From positions 1,674,001 through 1,738,000 of the forward strand of contig NZ_CP062182.1 of NCBI RefSeq assembly GCF_022700675.1: 64,000 nt of DNA, written 5' to 3'. Origin of the DNA: Acinetobacter sp. ASP199. GTDB taxonomy: Bacteria; Pseudomonadota; Gammaproteobacteria; Pseudomonadales; Moraxellaceae. Position numbers and translations under genes: made by a program. The notes beneath the pieces are model-generated. The model was not told the origin of the DNA and did no database searches. It was given only the letters and a program-made list of their open reading frames with translations. Numbering within the stretch: the stretch's first letter is position 1; the number at the start of each line of letters is the position of its first letter. Below are positions 25,777 to 43,887 of this stretch, piece by piece.

Positions 25777-28700
25777 TTATACTGAATAAGTTTTCGTTTC
25801 TAGTGGCTGATTGTCTTGTTTAATATTTATCCAACGATATAAAACAGGTAATAAAATCAATGTTAATAACGTGGATGAAATAATGCCGCCAATGACGACT
25901 GTCGCTAATGGTCGTTGTACTTCAGCACCTGTTCCTGTAGCAAGTGCCATCGGTACAAAACCAAGTGATGCAACACAAGCTGTCATTAATACAGGGCGTA
26001 AACGCAAGATAGCCCCTTTCCATACCGCTTCATCTAAACTGTATTGCTCTCGAAGTTCTTTAATAAAGGTCAGCATCACTAGACCATTCAGCACAGCAAC
26101 ACCCGACAGTGCAATAAAACCAATGCCTGCTGACATGGATAATGGAATATCACGTAGCCAAAGGAATAAAACACCACCTGTTAAAGCGAATGGTACGCCT
26201 GTAAATACCAAAAGACTCTCTTTAACATTATGAAATACTGCCATGAGCAAAATAAAGATCGTCAATAAAGCCAATGGAATCACAATTTGCATACGTGATT
26301 GAGCTGAAGCTAAATTTTCAAATTGACCACCATATTCAATCCAATAACCACTTGGTAAATCATAGGTGGATAATTGATTTTGTAATTCAGTTACATACGA
26401 ACCCAAATCACGCCCTTCAACATTAGTTGTCACGACAATACGACGTTTACCATTTTCACGGCTGACTTGGTTCACCCCTTCGATGAGACTGACTGTTGCA
26501 ACATCGGCTAAGACAATTTGCCCCCCACTAGGAAGCTGAATTGGCAACTGAGCAACAGTTGCTACATTTCGATCTTGATCAGTTAACCGAATCTCAAAAT
26601 CAAAACGTCGATCACCTTCTAATATTTCACCCACATTTTGACCACCAATACTGGTTGCCACAAGGTCTTGAATTGAACGCACACTCAAACCATATTGTGC
26701 AGCCAAAGCTTTATTTACCTCGACATTCAGTAATGGTAAACCTGAGGTCTGCTCGACTTTCACGGCACTGCTACCTGATATTTGCTGAATGATTTTAGAG
26801 ATTTTGGTCGCCTCAGTATTCAGAACCTCCATATCATCACCGAATATTTTCACACCAACATCACTACGTACACCTGAAATTAATTCATTAAATCGGAGTT
26901 CAATCGGTTGAGAAAATTCACTATTATTGCCTGGAATCGTGGCTAAATACGTCACCATACGGCCACGTAATTCATCTAAACTTTCTTTAGGATTTGGCCA
27001 TTCTGAACGAGGCTTTAACATGATATAGCCATCTGAAATATTGGGTGGCATGACATCTGTTGCAACCTCGGCTGTCCCCGTTCTGGCAAATACTGCCTTA
27101 ATTTCAGGGAAACTCTTTAAAAGAAGCTTTTCAGTATTCTCCTGAATACGTAAAGACTCTTCTAAGCCTGTACTTGGTGAACGCAACTGTTGTACCGCAA
27201 AGTCTCCTTCACTGAGCTGTGGTGCAAATTCACTGCCGAGTTTGGTACTGATGAATCCCGTAATCACTAATAAACACAGTGCAAAAGTCAGCACAACTGC
27301 TTTGTATTGATAAGCCTTATCAAGAATTTGCTGATATTTAGCTTTGAGCCACAACATCCAACGACTTTCTTTCTCTTGAATATCGCCTTTGACCCACAGC
27401 GCCACCGCAGCAGGTACAAAAGTGATTGATAATATAATGGCTGCAACAAGTGCGAGTACAACAGTCAGTGCCATTGGATGGAACATTTTTGCTTCCACAC
27501 CAGTTAAAGCAAAAATCGGAAAATACACCACTAAAATAATCAATTGCCCAAAAATCAAGGGACGTCGAGCTTGGCGTGCGGCTAAAAAGACCTCTTTAAA
27601 ACGCTCTTGTTGAGTGAGTTGTCGTTTTAACTGTTGCTGAGCGGATGCCAAACGACGTATACAGTTTTCAACAATGACCACTGCCCCATCAACAATAATC
27701 CCAAAATCTAAAGCACCTAAACTCATGAGATTGGCACTAATATTTTTTTGCGCCATGCCTGTTAAGGTAAATAACATCGATAATGGAATGACACAGGCGG
27801 TAATTAAAGCGGCACGAATATTCCCAAGAAATATAAACAGAATGATGATGACTAAAATGGCACCTTCAACCAAGTTTTTTTGTACCGTTTTAATTGCCTT
27901 TTCTACCAAACTGGTGCGGTCATAGACGGTTTCAATTTTAATCCCTTCGGGTAAGCTTTTCTGAACCTCTTGGATCTTAGTATCTACCGCTTTGGATACT
28001 GTACGGCTATTTTCGCCCATCGCCATCATGGCAATACCTAGCACCGTTTCTTCACCATTATAGGTTGCGCCACCTGTTCTAAGATCATGACCAATTGCGA
28101 CTTGAGCAATATCACCTACACGGATTGGACTACCGTTCGGACTTGCAATCATGGTGTTTTCAATATCACTGATATTGTTCAGTGTACCCGGCACACGAAC
28201 TGTGAGTTGCTGACCATTTTCCTCAATAAAACCTGCACCACGATTTTCATTGTTCAGTGTCAATGCTTGCTGTAATTGATCTAAACCAATATTTAACTGC
28301 TGCATACGACTCAGATCGGGTGAAACAAGATATGTTTTATTAAAGCCACCAATGCTGTTGATTTCAGCCACGCCTTTGACACGTTGCAATTGCGGTCGAA
28401 CAATCCAATCCTGAATTTCCCTTAAATCCATCGCTGTATAAGTAGAGCCATCTGCTTTTTTCGCATTCGGTTCAGCTTTAACGACCCATTGATAAATTTC
28501 CCCTAAGCCAGTCGATACAGGTGACATAGTGGGTGAAACTTGATTGGGCAGTTCTGCCTGTACCTCTTGCACACGTTGGTTAATTTGTTGCCGTGCCCAA
28601 TATATATCCGTACCGTCTTTAAAAACCACAGTGACTTGGGATAACCCATAACGTGAAATTGAACGTGTCAGCTCCAAATCTGGAATACCTGCCATGGCAT

Positions 28701-28947
28701 TTTCAATCGGATAGGTAATCCGTTGTTCTACTTCAAGTGCAGTAAAGCCATTGGCTTGGGTATTAATCTGCACTTGGGTATTGGTAATATCAGGCACAGC
28801 ATCAATCGGCAATTTTTGATAACTATAAATGCCGACAGCTATCCATGTGCAGACAAATAACATCACCCAAATGGCATTTTGAATTGAAAACTGAATAATG
28901 CGCTCAAATAATCCTTCAGGACGAGGTAAATCATGATTAGTGTTCAT
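25777..28947 (-). CDS. czcA: Heavy-metal efflux RND transporter CzcA
   Basis: Proton-driven inner-membrane pump of the CzcABC tripartite system. With the ATG at 28947 (GAGG 6 bases before) it is 1056 residues; the ATG at 28959 is the alternative. The TM4 motif DFGIIVDGAVVIVEN near residue 410 is typical of the HME-RND group for divalent cations (D..x..D/E pattern). Typical segments YSYQKLPIDAVPDITN and RSISRYGLSQVTVVF are at the N-terminus. Its start overlaps the czcB end. Confidence 0.95.
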   Translation of the reverse strand: MNTNHDLPRPEGLFERIIQFSIQNAIWVMLFVCTWIAVGIYSYQKLPIDAVPDITNTQVQINTQANGFTALEVEQRITYPIENAMAGIPDLELTRSISRYGLSQVTVVFKDGTDIYWARQQINQRVQEVQAELPNQVSPTMSPVSTGLGEIYQWVVKAEPNAKKADGSTYTAMDLREIQDWIVRPQLQRVKGVAEINSIGGFNKTYLVSPDLSRMQQLNIGLDQLQQALTLNNENRGAGFIEENGQQLTVRVPGTLNNISDIENTMIASPNGSPIRVGDIAQVAIGHDLRTGGATYNGEETVLGIAMMAMGENSRTVSKAVDTKIQEVQKSLPEGIKIETVYDRTSLVEKAIKTVQKNLVEGAILVIIILFIFLGNIRAALITACVIPLSMLFTLTGMAQKNISANLMSLGALDFGIIVDGAVVIVENCIRRLASAQQQLKRQLTQQERFKEVFLAARQARRPLIFGQLIILVVYFPIFALTGVEAKMFHPMALTVVLALVAAIILSITFVPAAVALWVKGDIQEKESRWMLWLKAKYQQILDKAYQYKAVVLTFALCLLVITGFISTKLGSEFAPQLSEGDFAVQQLRSPSTGLEESLRIQENTEKLLLKSFPEIKAVFARTGTAEVATDVMPPNISDGYIMLKPRSEWPNPKESLDELRGRMVTYLATIPGNNSEFSQPIELRFNELISGVRSDVGVKIFGDDMEVLNTEATKISKIIQQISGSSAVKVEQTSGLPLLNVEVNKALAAQYGLSVRSIQDLVATSIGGQNVGEILEGDRRFDFEIRLTDQDRNVATVAQLPIQLPSGGQIVLADVATVSLIEGVNQVSRENGKRRIVVTTNVEGRDLGSYVTELQNQLSTYDLPSGYWIEYGGQFENLASAQSRMQIVIPLALLTIFILLMAVFHNVKESLLVFTGVPFALTGGVLFLWLRDIPLSMSAGIGFIALSGVAVLNGLVMLTFIKELREQYSLDEAVWKGAILRLRPVLMTACVASLGFVPMALATGTGAEVQRPLATVVIGGIISSTLLTLILLPVLYRWINIKQDNQPLETKTYSV

Positions 28948-30160
28948 GGCCAGCCTCATCTTTTTCTAATTCAGACTTTAATAAAAAACTGCCATCAGCA
29001 ATGTATTTCTGCCCTTCAGTTAATCCAGAAATGACTTCTAGCCATTGCCCATCCTGACTGCTCACGCCCACTTCAATCGGCTGTACTTTCAGATGAACCT
29101 GTCCTTTTTCTTCAGACTCAACCACGAATACCACAGGCTTTCCTTCCACCTGCTGTAAGGCTTTTTTCTGAATTCTTAATACTGTTTTTGTTTGTGCATC
29201 AGTCACAAAAACATTTACCAAAACATTTGGACGCAGTACATCTGCTTGTGTAGTGACTTTGGCACGGACTTGTAAACGCCCTGTTTGTACATCTGCTTGT
29301 GAATTCAAGATTTGTACTTTAGCTTGGTAGTCTTGATCAGAACCATTGATTTTAAACTTTAAAATTTGCCCTGCTTGAAGCTGAACATTTGAGGTATTGG
29401 GTAGATTAAATTCCAACCAAAGGTCTTTTAGATTTTCAATCACAAAAAGCTGATCCGCCACTTGGACATTTTCACCGACAACTATGTCTTTTTGACTAAT
29501 CATGCCTGAAATAGGCGCACGAATAACAAAGCGTCCATTTTGCCCAGTTGAACCAAGTGCTTTTAAACGGGCTTGTTGAGATTGCACTGTAATTTGGGCT
29601 TGGCGATAGGCATTTTCAGCACGTTGCAAATCTTGTTTTGCCGAAATACCTTGTGACCACAACTGTTGTTCACGTTGATATTCTTGTTGTGCCAAACGCA
29701 GACTTGACTGCGCCATGCTTAAGTTTGCTTGCTGGTCAATTAATTCAGGCACAGAAAGTACAGCAAGCGTTTGACCACGTTCTACGTATTGCCCCAGTGC
29801 AACATGAACTTGCTCAACATGACCACTGAAATTCGGTGAAATATGCGCTTGCTGATCCGTATTCACCACCAATTTTCCTGGGAGAGTTACAAAGCTATTT
29901 ACCTGCCCCTGTGTGGCTGTTTCAACTTTAAGCCCATGTTCCACCATCTGCTGAGCTGTCAGCTGTATTTCGCCTTCTTCACTATGTGAATCTACCGTAT
30001 TTTCTTCAGCATGTTGCTCAGTTTCGCCTTCATGTTCATGCGTATCATTTTTTTCATTGCGGTTACTCAACCAAATCCAAAGGCTGATCAAAATAGTCAA
30101 CCCGATCAAAACACTGATTAAAATGGGTTGAGAGATTTTTCCAAATTGATGTTGTTTCAT
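28937..30160 (-). CDS. czcB: Periplasmic adaptor CzcB of the RND metal pump
   Basis: Membrane fusion protein linking CzcA to CzcC. 407 residues: an N-terminal membrane anchor (ILISVLIGLTILISLWIWL), a His/Glu-rich segment (EKNDTHEHEGETEQHAEE) that may bind metal, a barrel-sandwich and a helical hairpin of coiled coil (about 135-200), and beta-barrel domains. It ends in another His-containing tail (DEAGHEH). It overlaps czcA by 11 bases and follows czcC by 3. Confidence 0.93.
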   Translation of the reverse strand: MKQHQFGKISQPILISVLIGLTILISLWIWLSNRNEKNDTHEHEGETEQHAEENTVDSHSEEGEIQLTAQQMVEHGLKVETATQGQVNSFVTLPGKLVVNTDQQAHISPNFSGHVEQVHVALGQYVERGQTLAVLSVPELIDQQANLSMAQSSLRLAQQEYQREQQLWSQGISAKQDLQRAENAYRQAQITVQSQQARLKALGSTGQNGRFVIRAPISGMISQKDIVVGENVQVADQLFVIENLKDLWLEFNLPNTSNVQLQAGQILKFKINGSDQDYQAKVQILNSQADVQTGRLQVRAKVTTQADVLRPNVLVNVFVTDAQTKTVLRIQKKALQQVEGKPVVFVVESEEKGQVHLKVQPIEVGVSSQDGQWLEVISGLTEGQKYIADGSFLLKSELEKDEAGHEH

Positions 30161-30163
30161 GAT

Positions 30164-31492
30164 TTATTCTCCCTGACCATTCAACAGATTTTGAGTTTCG
30201 ACAAAGGCTTTTTTATTCAACTGGCTATAAGCATTGGATTGGCTGATCTCTTCATAACTTGTGCCTAGACTTAAGGCTTCAATGCTGAGTGCGTTTTGCC
30301 ATGCTTGTTTCAATATTTGCAGCTGCGCCACATGTAAATTTTGCAGTTGTAATGATGTTTGCTGCATATCTGTGATGGAGAACTTTCCTGCCTGAAAGCC
30401 TTGTAAAGTACGAGAATGGACTTTTTCAGAGAGTTGAATTTGTGCACTTGTCGCATCATATTGTTGGCGCAAACCTTTCAATTCATTCAATTGATTTGCT
30501 ATATCAAGAATTTGCTGCTTAAGCTCTCTTTGTTGGACTTGATTTAATAACTGCTGTTGGCGCTCTGCCATTGGAATCGTATATTGCTGACGATTAAAAA
30601 TATTTAACGGAATTTCGACACCCAATGCCAAAGTCGTTTCATCCGAAGATTGAGGTGTCTTGGTCTGAGTCATGTCAAAATTCAAAGTGGGTTGAGGACG
30701 GTTTTTTATCCTGAGTCTTTCTACTTTTTGCTGAGATTGTTGCATATTCAAGGCATATAGTTTTTCGAGCCAACCTTGTTGGATATTTTGCTCAACTGAA
30801 CGCTCTATCTCGCTTGGCCAAATGACTTTATTTGCTTGAATACTTAAGGAAGGTTGTGATTCTCCCCACAAATGAGACAATTGTCGTTGCGATGCTTGTA
30901 GCGCCAGTAAAGCCTGTTGAGATTGTCTTTGAACATCCAAATGTTCAATTTGAGCACGCTCATAATCCACCAAGGCAATACTCCCCGCTTGGTAACGCTT
31001 TTGGGCACTGTCTAGATTGCTTTGGCTGAGCTTAAGTTGCTTTGCAAAAATAGTCCTTTCAGTTTCGGATAATAGATACTGTGCCCAAGCATACTTCACT
31101 ACCAATTCACTCTGCGCTTGCCAAAGCTGTTCTTGCAATTGAAGCTGTTGTTCTGAAATTGCGGCTATTTTTTGATTTAACTTAGTTTGACCAAAGACAT
31201 CGAGTGGCTGACGAATACCAACACTGAGTTCTTGTTCCTGACCGGATGCAAAACCACTCTGCTCGATTGAAAAAGTTGGGTTTTGCCATAAACGGCTATT
31301 TTGATGATTTAAAGTTGCAAGTTGCTGACGTTGTTGCTGAAGTTCAGCTTGTGATTGATACTGCTGAACTTTGGCTAAAGCCTCTTGGAAATTCGAAATT
31401 TCGTATGTAGACGCATGACTCGTTTGAAAGCCAAATAGCAATAACCCAATGGCCACGCATTGACTTGCAACGGCCTTATTTTGAAAAGACAT
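30164..31492 (-). CDS. czcC: Outer-membrane channel CzcC (TolC-like)
   Basis: Outer membrane factor of the metal pump. 442 residues with a signal peptide (VAIGLLLFGFQTSHA-ST) and long Gln/Leu-rich coiled-coil repeats (QQRQQLATLNHQNSRLWQNP, RYQAGSIALVDYERAQ), the standard OEP duplicated layout. First of the tightly spaced czcCBA genes; 48 bases separate it from czcI upstream. Confidence 0.92.
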   Translation of the reverse strand: MSFQNKAVASQCVAIGLLLFGFQTSHASTYEISNFQEALAKVQQYQSQAELQQQRQQLATLNHQNSRLWQNPTFSIEQSGFASGQEQELSVGIRQPLDVFGQTKLNQKIAAISEQQLQLQEQLWQAQSELVVKYAWAQYLLSETERTIFAKQLKLSQSNLDSAQKRYQAGSIALVDYERAQIEHLDVQRQSQQALLALQASQRQLSHLWGESQPSLSIQANKVIWPSEIERSVEQNIQQGWLEKLYALNMQQSQQKVERLRIKNRPQPTLNFDMTQTKTPQSSDETTLALGVEIPLNIFNRQQYTIPMAERQQQLLNQVQQRELKQQILDIANQLNELKGLRQQYDATSAQIQLSEKVHSRTLQGFQAGKFSITDMQQTSLQLQNLHVAQLQILKQAWQNALSIEALSLGTSYEEISQSNAYSQLNKKAFVETQNLLNGQGE

Positions 31493-31540
31493 GATTATTT
31501 CCCACTCATTAAAAGATAAAAGTGGTGGGAATGTTTTAGG

Positions 31541-31939
31541 CTACCCCACCATTAGCGGGGAAAATTCGGGAGGAGGAGTTTGAGCATTTAAATCTGGCGA
31601 TCTGTAATCATTGCGCCAAGCATATTTAGGCGCTACAGCTAAGGAAAACAACAATGGAATAAAGGAATGTTGTTGCTGTTCCAATATCAAGTGCGTCATC
31701 GATGGAAGATGATCTTGATGATCCTCACCTAAATCTAAAGTCTTGGAAACTGATTCAGAGGCTTGATGACGATCATGCTGAGTATCACTTACGCATAAAG
31801 CATTGCTATGATGTCCAAAGTGATAGCTTTGATTTACTGTAATAGGTTCTTCATGCACACAAAAAGCAGCTGCCACATTCCAAAGACTTTGGAACATGAA
31901 CAAACCCACTAAGACTGTAATCCATGTTGATGAACGCAT
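31541..31939 (-). CDS. czcI: CzcI-like periplasmic protein
   Basis: A 132-residue exported protein leading the czc operon. It has a signal peptide (WITVLVGLFMFQSLWNVAAA-FCVHEE), several His residues (YHFGHHSNALC, DRHQ, DHQDH) and a C-terminal PPPEF. Size, position and composition match CzcI, a small protein at the head of czc operons whose role is probably regulatory or metal-binding. The symbol is given by context and resemblance. Confidence 0.75.
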   Translation of the reverse strand: MRSSTWITVLVGLFMFQSLWNVAAAFCVHEEPITVNQSYHFGHHSNALCVSDTQHDRHQASESVSKTLDLGEDHQDHLPSMTHLILEQQQHSFIPLLFSLAVAPKYAWRNDYRSPDLNAQTPPPEFSPLMVG

Positions 31940-31968
31940 ACGAAAACGAATAAATCAATTTGAACGCC

Positions 31969-31999
31969 ATTATAAAGCCGAGATGCGCTCAAAGGTCAA
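31969..31999 (-). promoter_or_regulatory. Promoter of the czc operon with 19-base spacer
   Basis: On the minus strand TTGACC (31999-31994) and TATAAT (31974-31969) are separated by 19 bases, the long spacing typical of promoters activated by MerR-family regulators. It ends 30 bases before czcI. No merR gene lies nearby, so the regulator would be elsewhere. Confidence 0.6.
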
Positions 32000-32103
32000 G
32001 ACCTATTATTTAGACAGATGACCAAGACCATACTGATAAATAGCAGTTGAAAATAGATCAGCTTAGGCTACTATATTGAAGTTCGAATGAATGACAAGCA
32101 TAT

Positions 32104-32520
32104 ATGTTGATTGCTCTCTCCAAAAAACTTTGGTTTTGTTGCCTTATGGTGTTTGCCATAGGATGGAGTAGTGTGTCTGTTGCTTCAGTCAAAATCATGC
32201 ATATCAATATGCAAACGTCTATGAGTGCAGATCATTGTTTAGATCAAGCAAAACCGATGACTCTGCACAGCAATACGCATGACATCAGCATGAGCAATGA
32301 TTGTCATGATTCATTCGCATTTGATACCAATCTAAATGCTAAAGATTGTCAGGAATGTGCTAGCTTCTCTTGCCAGAGTCCAATTTTTGGGCTTGATTTA
32401 GAACACACCTCACTGCATGTTCCAAATACAGTATATCGCTTAGATCGGCCTCATTTCACTTATTCGCATCAATATCTCCATGGATATTGGCAAGAAATCT
32501 TACGCCCACCTAAAACTTAA
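32104..32520 (+). CDS. Small exported Cys/His/Met-rich protein of the copper operon
   Basis: A 138-residue protein heading the copA-copB run. It has a signal peptide (LWFCCLMVFAIGWSSVSVAS) and a mature part rich in Met, His and Cys (MHINMQTSMSADHC, DCHDS, DCQECASFSCQS), ending LRPPKT. This looks like CopL/DUF2946-type proteins that precede copA in copper operons, and it probably binds copper. A TTGAAA/TATATT pair at 32047-32077 may be its promoter. Family assignment is tentative. Confidence 0.72.
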   Translation: MLIALSKKLWFCCLMVFAIGWSSVSVASVKIMHINMQTSMSADHCLDQAKPMTLHSNTHDISMSNDCHDSFAFDTNLNAKDCQECASFSCQSPIFGLDLEHTSLHVPNTVYRLDRPHFTYSHQYLHGYWQEILRPPKT

Positions 32521-32565
32521 CTGAATTATCTGAAAAATTTTTCATTTCACAATTTAGGTTAAGTC

Positions 32566-34356
32566 ATGTCTATAAAATTTAATCAAGGTCTGCTTGCAGG
32601 TATCTGCCTTGTAACATCATCATGGACGTTTTCTGCTGTAAAGGAATATCACCTTTATATTGATGAAGCGATGGTGAATCTTACAGGTAAAGCAGTAAAA
32701 CGAATCACGGTCAATGGGCAATTTCCCGCTCCACGATTGGAGTTTGAAGAAGGCGATGAGGCTGTTATTCATGTACATAATCAGCTCAAAAATCAAGATT
32801 CATCTATTCATTGGCATGGACTGTTACTCCCCGGCATAATGGATGGCGTACCCGGATTTAATGGCTTCAATGGTATCCGTCCTCAAAGCCATTTCACCTA
32901 TAAATTTAAAGTCCGCCAAAATGGCACCTATTGGTATCACGCCCATTCAAAAGGACAAGAACAAGATGGCTTGTATGGTGCATTTATCATCTATCCCAAA
33001 GGTCAAACACCTTTAGTCAAGCATGAGCAAACCCAGCGTGATTATGTGGTTATGCTGTCTGATTTTCATGAAAGCTCAAGTGAAGAGATTCAAAAAAATC
33101 TAAAAATATCGGCTGAATACTATCAAAATCAACGTGAAACTTTGCAGGATGTTTGGAAGCAAATCAAACGTGATGGATTAAGTGCAACATGGTCTGACCG
33201 TAAAATGTGGAATCAGATGCGTATGCTGAAAACCGATCTATCCGATGTTACAGGCTATACCTTTCTTATAAATGGCAAAACACCACAACAGAATTGGACA
33301 GGCATGTTTAAACCGAATGAAAAAATTCGTTTACGCTTTATTAATGCCTCTGCCATGTCCTTTTATGATGTCAGTATTCCTGATTTAAAAATGACGGTGG
33401 TGAGTGCAGATGGACAACCTGTCCAGCCTGTTAGCGTCGATGAATTTCGACTCGGCACAGCCGAAACATACGATGTGATTGTGCAGCCTAAAAAAAATCA
33501 CTACCAAATTGAAGCCGAATCTATAGATCGCTCAGGTTATGCGATTGGCACTCTACATAATGAGCTGAATCCTGTAACCCATGCTATTCATATGCCTGCG
33601 CCACGTCCACGCTCGCTTTTGACGATGGAAGATATGGGGCATAGTGGCAGTGATCATACAGGCATGGATCATTCAAAGATGAACCATGGTGATATGCAAA
33701 GCATTGAGCATTCGAAAATAAATCATGCTGCTCATACTGATCATGCAGATATGGATCATTCACAGCATGGCACAGTGAAACCACAAAAAAATGATCAAGT
33801 GGTTTATGGTTGGTCAAATTCCTCTACACCTGATGGAAATAAAGCCTTGCAATATAGTGACTTAAAGGCTTTAGAACCGCAAAAAGATACACGTGATGCA
33901 AGCAGTGAATTGGTGGTGCGCTTAGGCGGAACCATGGAGCGCTATATTTGGACGATTAATGGTAAAAAATTTAGTGATGCTGAACCGCTGAAAGTGAAAT
34001 ATGGCGAGCGCATCCGTATCAAATTTATCAATGACAGCATGATGGCACACCCGATGCATTTACATGGCATGTTTATGCAATTGGAAAATGGTCAAGATGC
34101 GGTTGATATGCCCAATAAACATACTGTGATTGTTCCTCCTGGAAAGACTGTCACCGCCCTACTCACCGCAGACGAGCTGGGTGAATGGGCAATCCACTGT
34201 CATCTGCTTTATCACATGAGTGCAGGCATGATGAACAAGTTAATCGTAGCAAATGTCAGCAATGAGCAAGTCTCTACGACGCCAATCCAAGGAATAAATT
34301 CGACTCAAGCAAACCCAGTTGCTGAAGAAAAAGGAACTGAACATGCACATCATTAA
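32566..34356 (+). CDS. copA: Periplasmic multicopper oxidase CopA
   Basis: Copper-resistance multicopper oxidase, 596 residues. Copper ligands are seen in HWHG (82-85), WYHAHSKGQ (123-130), HPMHLHGMF and HCHLLYHMSAGM near the C-terminus. A Met/His-rich insert with repeated MDHS/MNHG units (about 350-405) should bind extra copper. The N-terminus is a Sec-type signal without the twin-arginine motif usual for CopA. It overlaps copB by 14 bases. Confidence 0.94.
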   Translation: MSIKFNQGLLAGICLVTSSWTFSAVKEYHLYIDEAMVNLTGKAVKRITVNGQFPAPRLEFEEGDEAVIHVHNQLKNQDSSIHWHGLLLPGIMDGVPGFNGFNGIRPQSHFTYKFKVRQNGTYWYHAHSKGQEQDGLYGAFIIYPKGQTPLVKHEQTQRDYVVMLSDFHESSSEEIQKNLKISAEYYQNQRETLQDVWKQIKRDGLSATWSDRKMWNQMRMLKTDLSDVTGYTFLINGKTPQQNWTGMFKPNEKIRLRFINASAMSFYDVSIPDLKMTVVSADGQPVQPVSVDEFRLGTAETYDVIVQPKKNHYQIEAESIDRSGYAIGTLHNELNPVTHAIHMPAPRPRSLLTMEDMGHSGSDHTGMDHSKMNHGDMQSIEHSKINHAAHTDHADMDHSQHGTVKPQKNDQVVYGWSNSSTPDGNKALQYSDLKALEPQKDTRDASSELVVRLGGTMERYIWTINGKKFSDAEPLKVKYGERIRIKFINDSMMAHPMHLHGMFMQLENGQDAVDMPNKHTVIVPPGKTVTALLTADELGEWAIHCHLLYHMSAGMMNKLIVANVSNEQVSTTPIQGINSTQANPVAEEKGTEHAHH

Positions 34357-40091: not shown

Positions 40092-40256
40092 AGAAAGTTA
40101 CCCGTTTTGATAAAGGTGTCGAAATCTTAATCAAACAAAGGTAACTTTCTTATGTTGCATACTAACAATCAAATCATTAAACACAAAGTAGGCTTACTCA
40201 ATTTAGCCGAAGAACTTCAGAATGTTTCTAGAGCATGCAAAGTGATGGGTGTATCT
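40092..40256 (+). mobile_element. Left-end remnant of an IS481-type element
   Basis: An open frame from 40152 (MLHTNNQIIKHKVGLLN, then LAEELQNVSRACKVMGVS) matches the start of IS481-type transposases and is cut after 35 codons by the IS3 element at 40257. An 11-bp inverted repeat AGAAAGTTACC/GGTAACTTTCT (40092-40102, 40140-40150) lies before it. The rest of the IS481 gene is absent on the other side, so DNA was lost. True left boundary is uncertain, perhaps nearer 40070. Confidence 0.65.
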
Positions 40257-40290
40257 TGAACCGTACCGGGTTTGTCGGAGAGTCAATATT

Positions 40291-40316
40291 CTGAGTGAGA
40301 AGCACTGCTTCGCAAG
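40291..40316 (+). repeat. Palindromic micro-insertion, copy 1
   Basis: CT at 40291-40292 and AAG at 40314-40316 flank 21 bases that start GAG, contain the palindrome GAAGCACTGCTTC (40299-40311) and end CGC. It lies between the left inverted repeat and orfA of the IS3 element. Related copies are at 40433 and 43753. Confidence 0.6.
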
Positions 40317-40321
40317 GTTCG

Positions 40322-40652
40322 ATGACAAAATTAAAATATACCCCTGAAATCAGAGAAAGAGCGGTTCAATTATTGATTGAATCTGAAAAAGATTATCCAT
40401 CGAATTGGGCTGCGATCACCGCTATTGCGCCTGAGCAGTATACTGCGCAAGGGTTGTACTCCTGAAACACTTCGTGCCTGGCATCAAAAGCATTTAGATC
40501 AGCAAAATCCTATTAAAGTACAACAGATATCTGATCAAGAAAAAATGAAGCAAATGGAACGTGCAATTAAAGAATTAAAGCGTGCCAATGAAATTCTACG
40601 TAAAGCAGCCGCTTTTTTCGCCCAGGTGGAGCTCGACCGCCCACACAAATAA
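40322..40652 (+). pseudogene. IS3-family orfA, frameshifted
   Basis: Begins MTKLKYTPEIRERAVQLL and reads a helix-turn-helix up to AITAIAP, where a 16-base palindromic insertion (40433-40448) shifts the frame. The rest (CTPETLRAWHQKHLDQQNP and a leucine-zipper part RAIKELKRANEILRKAAAFF) is in another frame up to 40652. Confidence 0.75.
40431..40451 (+). repeat. Palindromic micro-insertion, copy 3, in orfA
   Basis: CT (40431-40432) and AAG (40449-40451) flank 16 bases that start GAG, contain the perfect palindrome GCAGTATACTGC (40435-40446) and end CGC. It breaks the orfA reading frame of the IS3 element. Confidence 0.6.
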
Positions 40653-41186
40653 TGGTGGATTTCATCCATAACAATAAAGACTTATATGGTGTTGATGCGA
40701 TTTGTAGGATTTTACCGATCGCAGCTTCAACCTATTACCGAACTGATGTGTTCTCACGAGCAATTGTTGGATGGAAAGTATCAACACACATGAATACAGA
40801 TATGGTGCTCGATGCATTAGAGCAATGCATTGCACGATCGAGGCATGCCAAAGAATGTGATTCATCGTTCCGATAGAGGTGTTCAATATCTTTCTATTCG
40901 CTATACCAATCGTTTAGAAGCTGCAAATTTACGAGCATCAGTCGGTACGACTGGTGATTCATACGATAATGCTTTGGCTGAAACGGTGAATGGCTTATAC
41001 AAAACAGAGGTGATTGAATATCTAAAAGCAGATTGGCAAGGTTTAGCAGATGTACAACTTGTGACACGAAACTGGGTAGATTTGTTCAATAAAAAGCGTG
41101 TACACAGTGCACTGGGTTATGTATCGCCTTTTGAGTTTGAAGCAATGTACTATGATAAGATTAACCCGTTAGGTCAGGTGGCCTAA
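40652..41186 (+). pseudogene. IS3-family orfB (transposase), deleted and frameshifted
   Basis: The start MVDFIHNNKDLYGVDAICRI and the end (HRSDRGVQYLS, GDSYDNALAETVNGLYK, RVHSALGYVSPFEFE) are recognisable. After STYYRT the text jumps to DVFSRAIVGWKVS, so roughly 130 codons, including the first catalytic Asp region, are missing. A further frameshift follows at about 40855. The C-terminal D and E of the DDE triad remain. Confidence 0.78.
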
Positions 41187-41225
41187 CTTAAATAAAAAAG
41201 TCTCCGACAAACCCGGTACGGTTCA

Positions 41226-41638
41226 GGAGAAGATTAAATGACTGCTACTCAAATTAAGCCACCTAAATATATATATACAGTGCAAATTACTGGATTAATC
41301 AGCCACTCATTCCTATATACGGCCTACCAGTCATTCTTATTCCTAGTAGGCCACTTTAATCAAAAAATCTAGTTATTGCCATTGTCAGCGTAAAGTTTTT
41401 CTCTGTATGATTTTCCTTTAATCTCTAATTCGTAGGACCTATGTAAAATTCGATCCATTACAGCATCAACAATAGTTGGATCAGGAAATTGCTCAAACCA
41501 TAAATTTCGGAACTTGACTTGTAATCAACCAATATATTGCTCGAAAATTAGAAGCAGTGGGTTGATGTGATTATTTCGGATTTGTTATTAGAAATTAATT
41601 GAAAGCAGTATTTTTTAAACTTTAGGTAGAATGAAAAG
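41226..41638. other. Mobile-element scrap zone
   Basis: Holds the IstB fragment (41368-41521) and unassigned DNA; the GGCCTAC/GTAGGCC-bounded stretch near 41318-41353 resembles 52933-52973. No intact gene is seen. Confidence 0.6.
41368..41521 (-). pseudogene. C-terminal fragment of an IS21-type IstB helper ATPase
   Basis: On the minus strand the frame reads LWFEQFPDPTIVDAVMDRIL, then SYELEIKGKSYREK and a stop at 41368-41370. DAxxDR and the KGKSYR ending are typical of IstB C-termini. Only about 50 codons remain, and the upstream side is disrupted. Beyond its stop lies GGCCTAC...GTAGGCC (41324-41352), perhaps from the element's end. Confidence 0.65.
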
Positions 41639-42022
41639 GTGATTTTTTCAAGTATATTCACTGGTCTTTTTATGACGGTGGGTTTCACGGCGTTAATTTA
41701 TAACTACGTGTTGATGGATGGTAATTCGGGTTTGTTCTTTTTGGTTTGGGGTGGTGGTTTCTCTCTAGCAGGATTGTATTTCCATTACCACGGAACAATT
41801 GGGCAAATTGGATGGCAGAGACAGCGCTTTGTTCGTAACACCCAAACACTTGAATGGTATAAAACTGAATACCCTCAATGTGTTGTGACTACAAATATCG
41901 TGAAATGTTGTTTTTGCGAAAGTACATCAATTCGCAGATATGCCTTAAAAAACAATACTTACAAAATTCGCAACTCTTGTGCTAAATGCGGTGAAGTTTT
42001 GTTTTATACGGATGAGGAATAA
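41639..42022 (+). CDS. Membrane protein with C-terminal zinc ribbon
   Basis: A 127-residue protein starting at GTG. Two hydrophobic helices (about 3-25 and 31-50) are followed by a cytoplasmic part with CCFC and CAKC pairs (about residues 90-117) that form a likely zinc ribbon. It lies 2 bases before the NERD-domain gene, so the two are translated together. I know no named family; the pair looks like accessory cargo between IS remnants. Confidence 0.65.
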   Translation: MIFSSIFTGLFMTVGFTALIYNYVLMDGNSGLFFLVWGGGFSLAGLYFHYHGTIGQIGWQRQRFVRNTQTLEWYKTEYPQCVVTTNIVKCCFCESTSIRRYALKNNTYKIRNSCAKCGEVLFYTDEE

Positions 42023-42024
42023 TA

Positions 42025-42861
42025 ATGACTATTCATGCGTATTATGGTGATGTTAGCCACCTGAAAAATGAACAAAAAATGTTTGAAGACTTATTAACCC
42101 AATTGAAGCTTCATTGGGGTAATAGTGAAGATTGGATTTATTTGTTCTATAACACAATGTGGTCAGGTCAGGAAATTGATGTTATTGCTTTCACCAAGGA
42201 AGCAATTGTTGTTATTGATCTAAAAAACTATTCCGGCAATCTGGTTGGGTCGGAAAATGGGGAATGGCAGATTAATGGTGAGCTTGAGGTTCAGGGTGGT
42301 TCTCAGATTAATCCATTTGTTCAGATTCGGAAGAACAGATTTGCTGTTTTAGAGTGGTTCAAAAGTGCTGAATTGTTTACCGACCAAAACTTAGGTTTTA
42401 TTAGTGGTTGCATCATCCTGAATGAGTTATCTAGTACGCAAATGGATTTATCTCATTCGGTAAGAAAGTGGTTTTATGTTACCGATATTGCCAATTCAGT
42501 GGATACTTTGTCTAGACTCCATACCAAGGGGATTAGTCTTGCTAGTGATGATATTTTATACCTAGTAAACAAGTTAAAACTTAAAGAATATTCTTGGGAT
42601 CAGGGTGTTGCTCCTAGAGAGCGCAATCTTATTCAGTCAGATGATCGTGATAGTCCAAGTAATAATAGTCGTGATCAAAGTTCCGCTCCGATCAAATACA
42701 CATTACATGATCAAATGGAAAAGAAATTCAAAGGTGTTTTAGCACCGTACCTATTTTTCTATGGAACGGTCATCATCTGTTTAGCTATTGCTTTTCATAT
42801 TGCTAATGGTATGAAAGGTGAAGGGGTTGGGTACTTATTTAGTTTGATCTTTGGTCGCTAA
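42025..42861 (+). CDS. NERD-domain (nuclease-related) protein with C-terminal membrane anchor
   Basis: A 278-residue protein. The NERD fold shows E16, GQEIDVIAF with D52 and VVIDLKNYSG with D65 and K67, matching the D...(D/E)xK nuclease site, then NPFVQIRKNRFAV. After a linker rich in Ser/Asp/Asn there is one membrane helix near residues 238-258. NERD proteins are thought to process nucleic acids. The gene follows a zinc-ribbon membrane protein gene directly. Confidence 0.78.
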   Translation: MTIHAYYGDVSHLKNEQKMFEDLLTQLKLHWGNSEDWIYLFYNTMWSGQEIDVIAFTKEAIVVIDLKNYSGNLVGSENGEWQINGELEVQGGSQINPFVQIRKNRFAVLEWFKSAELFTDQNLGFISGCIILNELSSTQMDLSHSVRKWFYVTDIANSVDTLSRLHTKGISLASDDILYLVNKLKLKEYSWDQGVAPRERNLIQSDDRDSPSNNSRDQSSAPIKYTLHDQMEKKFKGVLAPYLFFYGTVIICLAIAFHIANGMKGEGVGYLFSLIFGR

Positions 42862-42938
42862 AAATATCATCTGATGTAAAAAAGGGCTTTGTTGCACAAA
42901 GTTATTCTTGAAGGCTTCTTCGGCAATATAATTTCCAG

Positions 42939-43887
42939 ATGAAGAAGCCTGCACCTAAAATCTACCGTACAACCAATTGGTCCTCGTATAACCGAGCCTT
43001 AATTAACCGAGGAAATATTTCAATCTGGTTTGATCCTAAGGCCCAATGGTATGCACAACCTCAAGGCAAGCATGGACGAAATCAAACTTATTCCGATACA
43101 TCGATTCAATGCTGTTTAATGATCAAATCTCTATTCCGTCTTTCTTTACGTATGGTCACAGGCTTTACTCAAAGTTTGATTAAGCTGTGCAGCCTGGATT
43201 GGACCGCACCAGATTACACGACCCTCTGTCGCAGACAAAAGACGATTGATATTGCGATTAGCTATCAGAAAAGTTGTGATGGACTTCACCTACTCATCGA
43301 CTCCACTGGCTTGAAGTTTTTAGGTGAGGGTGAATGGAAACGTAAGAAACATCAGCCTGAATACCATCGGCAATGGCGTAAACTGCATATTGGTATAGAT
43401 GCTGAAACACTGCAAATACGTGCTGTTCAGCTGACGACGAATAATGTCAGTGATTCACAAGTACTCGGTGATTTACTGGATCAAATCCCACCAGATGAGC
43501 GAATAGATTCTGTCTATACCGATGGGGCGTACGACACGAAATGCTGCAGACAAGTGATTTCAGATCGTCAAGCACATGCAGTAATTCCACCAAGAAAGAA
43601 TGCCAAGCCCTAGAAAGATTCTAAAATCAGTTCAATAGAACGAAATGAGTTACTTCAAACGGTTAAACATTTAGGCAGGACCCTATGGAAAAAATGGTCG
43701 GGTTATCACCGTCGAAGTTTGGTGGAAACTAAGATGCATTGCATCAAATCTTACGAAGCAGTGCTTCTCAGGCGATAAATTAACAGCAAGGAGTTTTTCT
43801 AGTCAGGTGAATGAGATTCATGCATGCGTAGCAGTCTTGAATAAATTCACACAATTAGGTCGTCCTCATACCCAAGTTGTCACTTGA
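42939..43887 (+). pseudogene. IS903-like transposase, broken by a stop and an insertion
   Basis: Reads through MKKPAPKIYRTTNWSSYNRA, LLIDSTGLKFLGEGEW and VYTDGAYDTKC (DDE parts) to PPRKNAKP, then TAG at 43611-43613 where a tryptophan codon is expected. Beyond it the frame resumes (ERNELLQTVKHLGRTLWKKW) until a palindromic insertion at 43753-43769; the remaining codons run to TGA at 43885. Confidence 0.8.
43750..43772 (-). repeat. Palindromic micro-insertion, copy 2, in the IS903-like gene
   Basis: Read on the minus strand, CCT and AAG flank 17 bases (43769-43753) that start GAG, hold GAAGCACTGCTTC and end CGT. The core is the same as copy 1 and it lies in a different IS family in the opposite orientation. 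Confidence 0.6.

Follow-up and report, generated by a model that had tools for sequence, protein, structure and literature searches.

We analysed a stretch of 64,000 nucleotides from Acinetobacter sp. ASP199 (contig NZ_CP062182.1, positions 1,674,001 to 1,738,000; hereafter the window), in which three short hairpins lie inside two insertion sequences (ISs) of different families. A reading of the sequence alone had noticed three inserts with GAG...CGC or GAG...CGT ends, and all three are present. They probably belong to a mobile family of hairpin micro-elements, T-GAG-stem-loop-CGY-AAG, which occurs in Acinetobacter and some other Moraxellaceae, resembles small dispersed repeats (SDRs) and repetitive extragenic palindromic (REP) sequences, and appears to integrate by being swapped in for a short piece of its target.

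Three hairpin inserts in two insertion sequences

The pattern CTGAG(N)CGYAAG matches the window at 40291-40316 and 40431-40451 on the plus strand and at 43750-43771 on the minus strand. These three matches compare with 0.36 expected (sd 0.64), and a count of three was reached in 1 of 100 shuffles; alone they would not be compelling statistically. The features of the locus are:

40256..41234, plus strand: host 1, an IS3-family insertion sequence of 979 bp with ends TGAACCGTACCGGG.../...CCCGGTACGGTTCA, internally shortened
40296..40316, plus strand: element A of 21 nt, reading TGAGAAGCACTGCTTCGCAAG, which precedes the IS3 transposase start codon; relatives without the insert in site cluster C9
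40432..40451, plus strand: element B, 20 nt, TGAGCAGTATACTGCGCAAG, within the first IS3 reading frame; relatives without the insert in site cluster C4
42885..43939, plus strand: host 2, an IS5-family (ISAha3-like) insertion sequence, identified by an NCBIfam match at 42939-43613 and by plasmid relatives
43750..43770, minus strand: element C of 21 nt, reading TGAGAAGCACTGCTTCGTAAG on this strand, which lies in the 3' part of the IS5 gene; relatives without the insert in site cluster C24

The hosts are those named from the sequence alone, an IS3-family element with two inserts and an IS903-like gene with one, IS903 being a group within IS5. Host 1 measures 979 bp compared to 1309 bp for a relative annotated with one transposase gene (net 330 bp shorter), and its piece 40830-41186 matches NF033516 (transpos_IS3) with a score under the curated cut-off. 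The gene of host 2 at 42939-43613 matches NCBIfam NF033579 (transpos_IS5_2), and several plasmid relatives of this host are annotated as ISAha3 family.

Relatives without the insert were found for all three sites, and further copies of the element occur in related genomes. Both outcomes favour the sequence-only reading, which had named the opposite results as grounds to reject it. Element A replaces 6 host nucleotides, with three further differences at the right junction. Element B replaces 7 with no junction mismatch and is the only clean-junction site of the three; its flanks are 98.3% identical to an empty copy. Element C replaces 5, with one mismatch within six nucleotides each side. The stretches delimited in the sequence-only reading do exist, but the element itself is T-GAG...CGY-AAG, and the leading CTGAG of the first insert belongs to the host. 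The expectation that removing each insert would rejoin a CTAAG site failed, as 6, 7 and 5 host nucleotides are gone at elements A, B and C.

Two of the inserts had been said to shift a reading frame. Element A comes shortly before the transposase start codon; the two that do so are elements B (net +13) and C (net +16). The insert of element C is also found in a second IS5 copy of the same genome (C1:1882613), and IS copies with an insert are present at more than one place in the source genome.

The element is dispersed throughout the genus

A loose pattern matched the source genome (3.05 Mb) 47 times and its reversed control 12 times. By eye, about 20 of the 47 are clear palindromes; 36 copies were counted in all. 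A tighter pattern, TGAGNAGN{3,8}CTNCGCAAG, gave 979 matches in 149 genomes of the genus compared to 24 for the reversed pattern. It is found in 128 of the 149 genomes, with a median of 5 matches and a maximum of 54, and the richest genomes are G092 (54), G000 (33) and G086 (31). Outside the family the pattern stays at control level in the scan of 187 genomes of the order from which we judge its absence there (23 matches versus 33 in the control). Two of six other genomes of the family have matches, which are palindromic only in one (G323).

A contig scan returned at least 120 stretches. The 80 examined belong to Acinetobacter, Psychrobacter, Alkanindiges, Moraxellaceae or gammaproteobacterial metagenome-assembled genomes (MAGs), and to two contigs filed under Streptomyces. 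The latter (Streptomyces cinereus JCM 3040; L122, L162) carry the hairpin inside IS3-like genes, and our guess is that they are contamination.

A literature search found no account of such elements in Acinetobacter, including in the available text of PMC3733652, PMC2884548, PMC4390886, PMC3116915 and PMC3224125. PMC3224125 describes two close A. baumannii strains in which the number of short sequence repeats differs in 40 intergenic regions.

The hairpin is conserved, not its letters

Alignment with relatives gives the unit T-GAG-stem-loop-stem-CGY-AAG, which is 20-21 nt long in 228 of 246 instances and at longest 25 nt, in a set preselected for stems of at least 4 bp. The searches fix the ends (TGAG, CG(C/T)AA) and return only variants that share them; taking TGAG and CGYAAG as the likely true boundaries rests on the junctions of filled and empty pairs. 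For the covariation count the pattern leaves the first stem pair free and fixes the next two. The free pair obeys Watson-Crick rules in 226 of 234 instances, or in 47 of 55 when each distinct sequence is counted once, and A-T, C-G, G-C and T-A all occur. Such compensatory pairing means that the hairpin is conserved and not its letters. With copies across the genus, these pairs support the earlier suggestion of a tiny mobile palindrome, found in unrelated hosts, whose ends are conserved and whose hairpin varies.

A pattern for longer forms gave 29 matches in 18 of 148 genomes versus 21 for the reversed control. By eye, 27 of these are hairpins of 43-48 nt that share the start of the element and end in a (G/T)CAAGACGNAGTG-like sequence; one is the short element with this same tail, and one looks like chance. 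Relatives of this length read TGAGC(A/G)A...GCAAGACGNAGTG and have varying long stems of their own (L364-L392; L053, L227, L229, L249); the 21-nt element possibly derives from them. L361 and L218 hold a form of 39 nt that contains a second hairpin.

Doublets hold 40 of the 177 chromosomal copies in 13 genomes, a count that omits six copies from smaller contigs in G065 and G140, and most copies are single. An inverted, tail-to-tail pair of hairpins about 9 nt apart is part of an intergenic repeat, roughly 300 bp long (TGATACTCGGAAACGTCATCCGCAACTG...ACTCCGTCAAGA), that is conserved genus-wide (L223-L236). Ten loci tried against Rfam gave no match at E 0.1.

Gains examined replace five to seven nucleotides

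An empty counterpart was found for 34 of 108 insertion-site clusters, using the best-scoring pair per cluster and the stem-selected instances. With 0-16 nt allowed, the replaced target is 5 nt in 2 clusters, 6 nt in 18 and 7 nt in 14; some clusters sit in related repeats and are not independent. Clusters with at most one mismatch in the six nucleotides of each junction (26) show the same range, with 5, 6 and 7 nt in 2, 13 and 11 of them, and the 9 clusters with zero-mismatch junctions lost 6 nt (4) or 7 nt (5). Because 5-7 nt are replaced at every site with an empty allele, the element replaces its target and is not simply inserted.

An earlier gapped comparison, in which target duplication and pure insertion were both allowed, found neither in 422 non-filled pairs: 326 fit a loss of 5-9 nt and 96 a larger one, mostly in copies filled with an element of another length. 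A miniature inverted-repeat transposable element (MITE) of a DDE transposon was accordingly rejected, the target being lost in these pairs instead of duplicated. A second gapped comparison (3-10 nt allowed) of 14 sites gave losses of 5, 6, 7 and 8 nt at 1, 8, 4 and 1 sites. The number of nucleotides lost is independent of the length of the element (20-23 nt).

The flanks of the five best filled/empty pairs of these 14 are 99.8, 99.2, 99.0, 98.3 and 97.8% identical; with three pairs at 99% or above, the gains are recent. Where the empty allele encodes a conserved transposase motif, it must be ancestral and the filled state a gain. The inserts had also been read as possible footprints of one excised element family. 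This idea is not supported, since the same letters stand at many unrelated sites and an empty allele that codes for a conserved motif must be older. The genome search and the comparison with intact copies proposed along with it yielded many hits and true empty alleles, without restoring a clean CTAAG.

The replacement is also found in non-coding DNA. In L283, a REP of the type that belongs to REP-associated tyrosine transposases (RAYTs), GTAGGG-GCGTATT-GAATACGCCC, occurs both empty and with the element replacing GCGTATT. On plasmids, a 39-nt insert in one (L361) is missing from three others at the orthologous IS3 copy; since L218 has the same insert in one of its ISs, conversion from another IS copy is possible at that locus. 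Empty alleles in near-identical hosts, and to that extent the difference between plasmids, add to the support for a mobile palindrome.

IS3 copies at one plasmid locus (L298, L360-L362) are mosaics of short converted patches, including near the first catalytic aspartate.

Target preference and host genes

The flanks of the 108 site clusters show a short preference: a purine at -3 in 87, G or C at -2 in 94, T at -1 in 5, and at +1 a purine in 98 and C in 1. No inverted-repeat symmetry of the flanks was seen at offset 0 (1.15 of 6 positions paired versus 1.29 when shuffled); the value reaches 1.59 at offsets 4 and 5, the shuffled control covering offset 0 only.

The hosts comprise intergenic palindromic repeats, IS genes and ordinary genes. 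The host scan of 101 site clusters had 93 left and 97 right pieces of sufficient length, of which 92 and 94 were searched. Pieces beside inserts match transposases of IS3, IS5, IS1595, IS256 (Mutator) and IS200/TnpB type. Many ordinary genes are matched as well, and at least five families other than transposases match on both sides (tRNA-synt_1, THF_DHG_CYH_C, AtuA_ferredoxin, TusA and DUF559). Some instances in non-transposase genes, such as L207, may be chance matches.

All 24 instances of the TGAGCAGTATACTGCGCAAG type in the stem-selected set lie in IS elements by eye: 14 at the GNCWDNA motif codons, 8 within the first reading frame of IS3 and 2 near the IS5 start. Inserts were placed at IS3 codons by eye, using conserved motifs and, for some pieces, profile checks, and the sameness of the element within this set is by selection, through an exact-pattern search. 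Eight hosts at the GNCWDNA site have flanks 55-71% identical in 26 of 28 pairs, and 81 and 95% in the other two. The insertion points are offset by 3 nt between two copies of a single IS type (L171/L349), and again between L311 and L317, whose flanks are 95% identical. The same element in distant hosts, together with points 3 nt apart in close copies, argues for independent hits, although IS copies also show conversion among themselves. In these pattern-selected samples, different stem types appear to favour different sites, an association that would fit guiding by the hairpin itself.

IS3 elements use a programmed frameshift between their reading frames. Elsewhere than in the window, a 21-for-6 exchange keeps the IS3 frame, and L360 and L362 annotate one transposase gene across the insert. 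At 1235 nt this gene is not a multiple of three, which fits a joined IS3 frameshift.

A MITE-like repeat of the source genome, with ends by eye TTTCATAAATCA/TGATTTATGAAA, hosts one or two hairpins (L005, L008, L010, L014, L026, L027, L275, L276). In the MAG PMG_235, nine contigs (L109, L113, L119, L138, L148, L152, L153, L155, L169) break off 3-11 nt away from the hairpin at a single site, as if an insert-carrying IS copy had multiplied there; the homologue of this site in L142, which belongs to the same site cluster, is IS1595-like. Upstream of the IS cluster, the window also holds a metal-resistance block at 25777-34356 with a CusA/CzcA-type resistance-nodulation-division (RND) pump and a CopA-type multicopper oxidase.

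Candidate mobilising genes

RAYT matches occur in 12 of 149 genomes, 2 of them over the cut-off. None was found in the three richest genomes (G092, G000 and G086) or in 30 of the 35 genomes with at least 10 copies, and copy number is unrelated to RAYT (p = 0.38). Of ten RAYT-like loci scanned, three have copies of the element nearby. The nine whose flanks were read own other palindromes: six a GTAGGGGCG.../...CGCCC REP, one the GTAGGGTGCG type and two others. Loci bearing their own REPs include L277 (GTAGGGTGCG), L279, L281, L283-L285 and L289. We rejected RAYT as the mobiliser on its absence from the richest genomes, the lack of correlation and these palindromes (9 of 9). Hairpins beside RAYT genes were likewise dropped as a lead, since in L279 and L283 they are the element landed, by eye, within the RAYT's own REP, replacing 7 nt.

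Y1_Tnp (PF01797) is present in 26 of 149 genomes, with one IS200-type gene in G000, three matches in G086 and none in G092. It was rejected because 25 of the 35 genomes with at least 10 copies are without PF01797 (p = 0.11 versus copy number). RVT_1 is present in 59 of 149 genomes, with none in G000 and one each in G092 and G086. It is weakly associated with copy number (medians 6 and 4, p = 0.025, uncorrected), and was rejected on its absence from G000 and from 17 of the 35 high-copy genomes.

The copies show no overall replication-strand bias, with 60 along and 67 against the direction of replication, where several chromosome lengths are rounded and 10 near-terminus and 6 smaller-contig copies are omitted. 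On the two chromosomes with the most copies the counts are skewed in opposite directions (24:11 and 13:23).

Comparison with known systems

The nearest known systems are cyanobacterial SDRs and REP/REPIN elements, each of which differs from the hairpins in at least one defining feature. SDRs (SDR5 and its kin) were reportedly described by Elhai et al. 2008. SDRs are hairpins of about 20-27 nt with fixed ends, inserted in other repeats and without a known mobiliser. According to PMC4390886, SDR5 inserts precisely between two nucleotides of HIP1. The Acinetobacter element is likewise a dispersed hairpin of about 20-27 nt inside other repeats, its ends set by the search pattern and its boundaries by the junctions. 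It differs from SDR5, which inserts precisely, in losing 5-7 nt in 34 of 34 clusters, and from SDRs in its short target preference and its home in Moraxellaceae. We therefore describe it as working like an SDR; any kinship to the cyanobacterial families would be putative.

REP, BIME and REPIN sequences associated with RAYTs are palindromes of 20-40 nt, some in inverted doublets (PMC3116915, PMC3733652). The likeness lies in a short dispersed palindrome with compensatory stem variation, some inverted doublets and copies in genes or other palindromes. The differences are these: the GTAG/CGTC tag is not at the foot of the element and the site-cluster flanks show only R-S-V|...|R, no cognate RAYT flanked by the same palindrome was found, copies are mostly single, sites in transposase genes are frequent and target replacement is near-fixed. 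The element is not a RAYT-driven REP.

Rickettsia palindromic elements are palindromic inserts inside genes, as described in PMC3733652. Many of them are in frame, whereas the Acinetobacter hairpins mostly frameshift their hosts by length. RPE-1 is much longer than these hairpins of about 21 nt.

With IS200/IS605 single-strand transposons the element shares a hairpin with an unpaired foot as a possible recognition signal, but 25 of the 35 high-copy genomes are without Y1_Tnp. To our knowledge, neither RAYT/Y1 nor IS200/IS605 chemistry would be expected to lose target. Short-patch capture would predict variable ends and a variable replaced length; the replaced length is 5-7 nt in 34 of 34 clusters, but the ends are fixed by the search, and longer forms exist.

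Discussion

The reading of the hairpins as a mobile family is carried by dispersal, a covarying stem, recent gain at sites with a known empty allele, the loss of 5-7 nt at each gain examined, a short target preference and shared catalytic-motif codons in distant IS3 elements. Several points weigh against it. The searches yielded no mobilising gene, 74 of the 108 site clusters are without an empty counterpart in the compared DNA, and copies are often inherited with the host repeat, leaving fewer independent events than clusters. The closest pair, L304/L295 (99.8%), has clustered differences at the right junction, where L206 matches better; conversion among IS copies blurs some cases (L361/L218); and fixed search ends miss relatives with other ends. 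Lastly, the missing overall strand bias gives no support to a strand-specific fork model.

Mechanistically, the unit would move in the form of a hairpin, either single-stranded or cruciform, and a protein would recognise its foot, TGA...GCAAG. The host or a mobile element would probably provide this protein in trans. The target strands would be cut 5-7 nt apart, or the stretch skipped by a replication fork, and the hairpin would be swapped in for it. IS genes are often hosts, probably since they are numerous and expendable, and copies may then spread with the IS or via conversion between IS copies. Clean junctions, near-fixed loss and target preference favour a foot-recognising exchange protein over capture at replication gaps. 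More tentatively, one may imagine a new kind of transposition, in which a dedicated enzyme swaps a hairpin of about 21 nt, a size that ranks with the smallest mobile DNAs on record, into a gap of 5-7 nt, prefers certain codons of transposase catalytic motifs, and spreads the element largely by invading, and often disabling, ISs; we are doubtful that this holds in full.

A replication or repair accident could do without a dedicated enzyme: short single strands of the hairpin, shielded from exonucleases, would be taken up at forks or gaps through an illegitimate double crossover. Short-patch events are reportedly known from A. baylyi, and the genus includes naturally competent species. Such capture would explain replacement instead of insertion, as well as the clustered extra changes at some junctions. 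It fits poorly with the cleanest pairs, which are similar up to the ends of the element, with the nearly constant length replaced, with the target preference and with the lack of an overall replication-strand bias; no microhomology between element ends and empty alleles was visible by eye. We think this unlikely.

If the elements were inserted only once and then passed on by inheritance and by conversion between IS copies, no mobility would be needed today. The mosaic IS3 copies at one plasmid locus, insert-bearing IS copies at more than one place, site clusters that hold many copies with related flanks and the L361 insert recurring in L218 all agree with such a history. Against it stand the 108 site clusters, the same element at points offset by 3 nt in IS copies that are nearly identical, and filled and empty flanks up to 99.8% identical, and we regard it as quite improbable that nothing moves today.

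The hairpins might also be REPs moved by RAYT, with singles as remnants of inverted doublets. This would suit short palindromes with intergenic copies, the tail-to-tail doublets in the 300 bp repeat (40 of 177 copies in doublets) and the element copies near three of ten RAYT-like loci. RAYT was not found in the richest genomes or in 30 of the 35 high-copy ones, its loci own other REPs, and the element is mostly single, is without the GTAG tag and loses target, which RAYT/Y1 chemistry is not known to do; this origin seems to us very unlikely. That the hairpins are chance or a coding motif, ordinary sequence of IS genes, as a 1-in-100 shuffle event in the window might suggest, can be set aside almost with certainty given 979 versus 24 matches, relatives without hairpins and the same letters in unrelated genes and intergenic repeats.

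If the hairpins are indeed a mobile family, a unit too small to encode anything would be moving actively throughout a bacterial family to which hospital species belong, by a junction rule, the swapping out of 5-7 nt, that fits no transposition chemistry known to us. The many natural before/after pairs offer material from which the mechanism could be worked out. Frequent landing in transposase genes would bear on how the load of insertion sequences is shaped in these bacteria.

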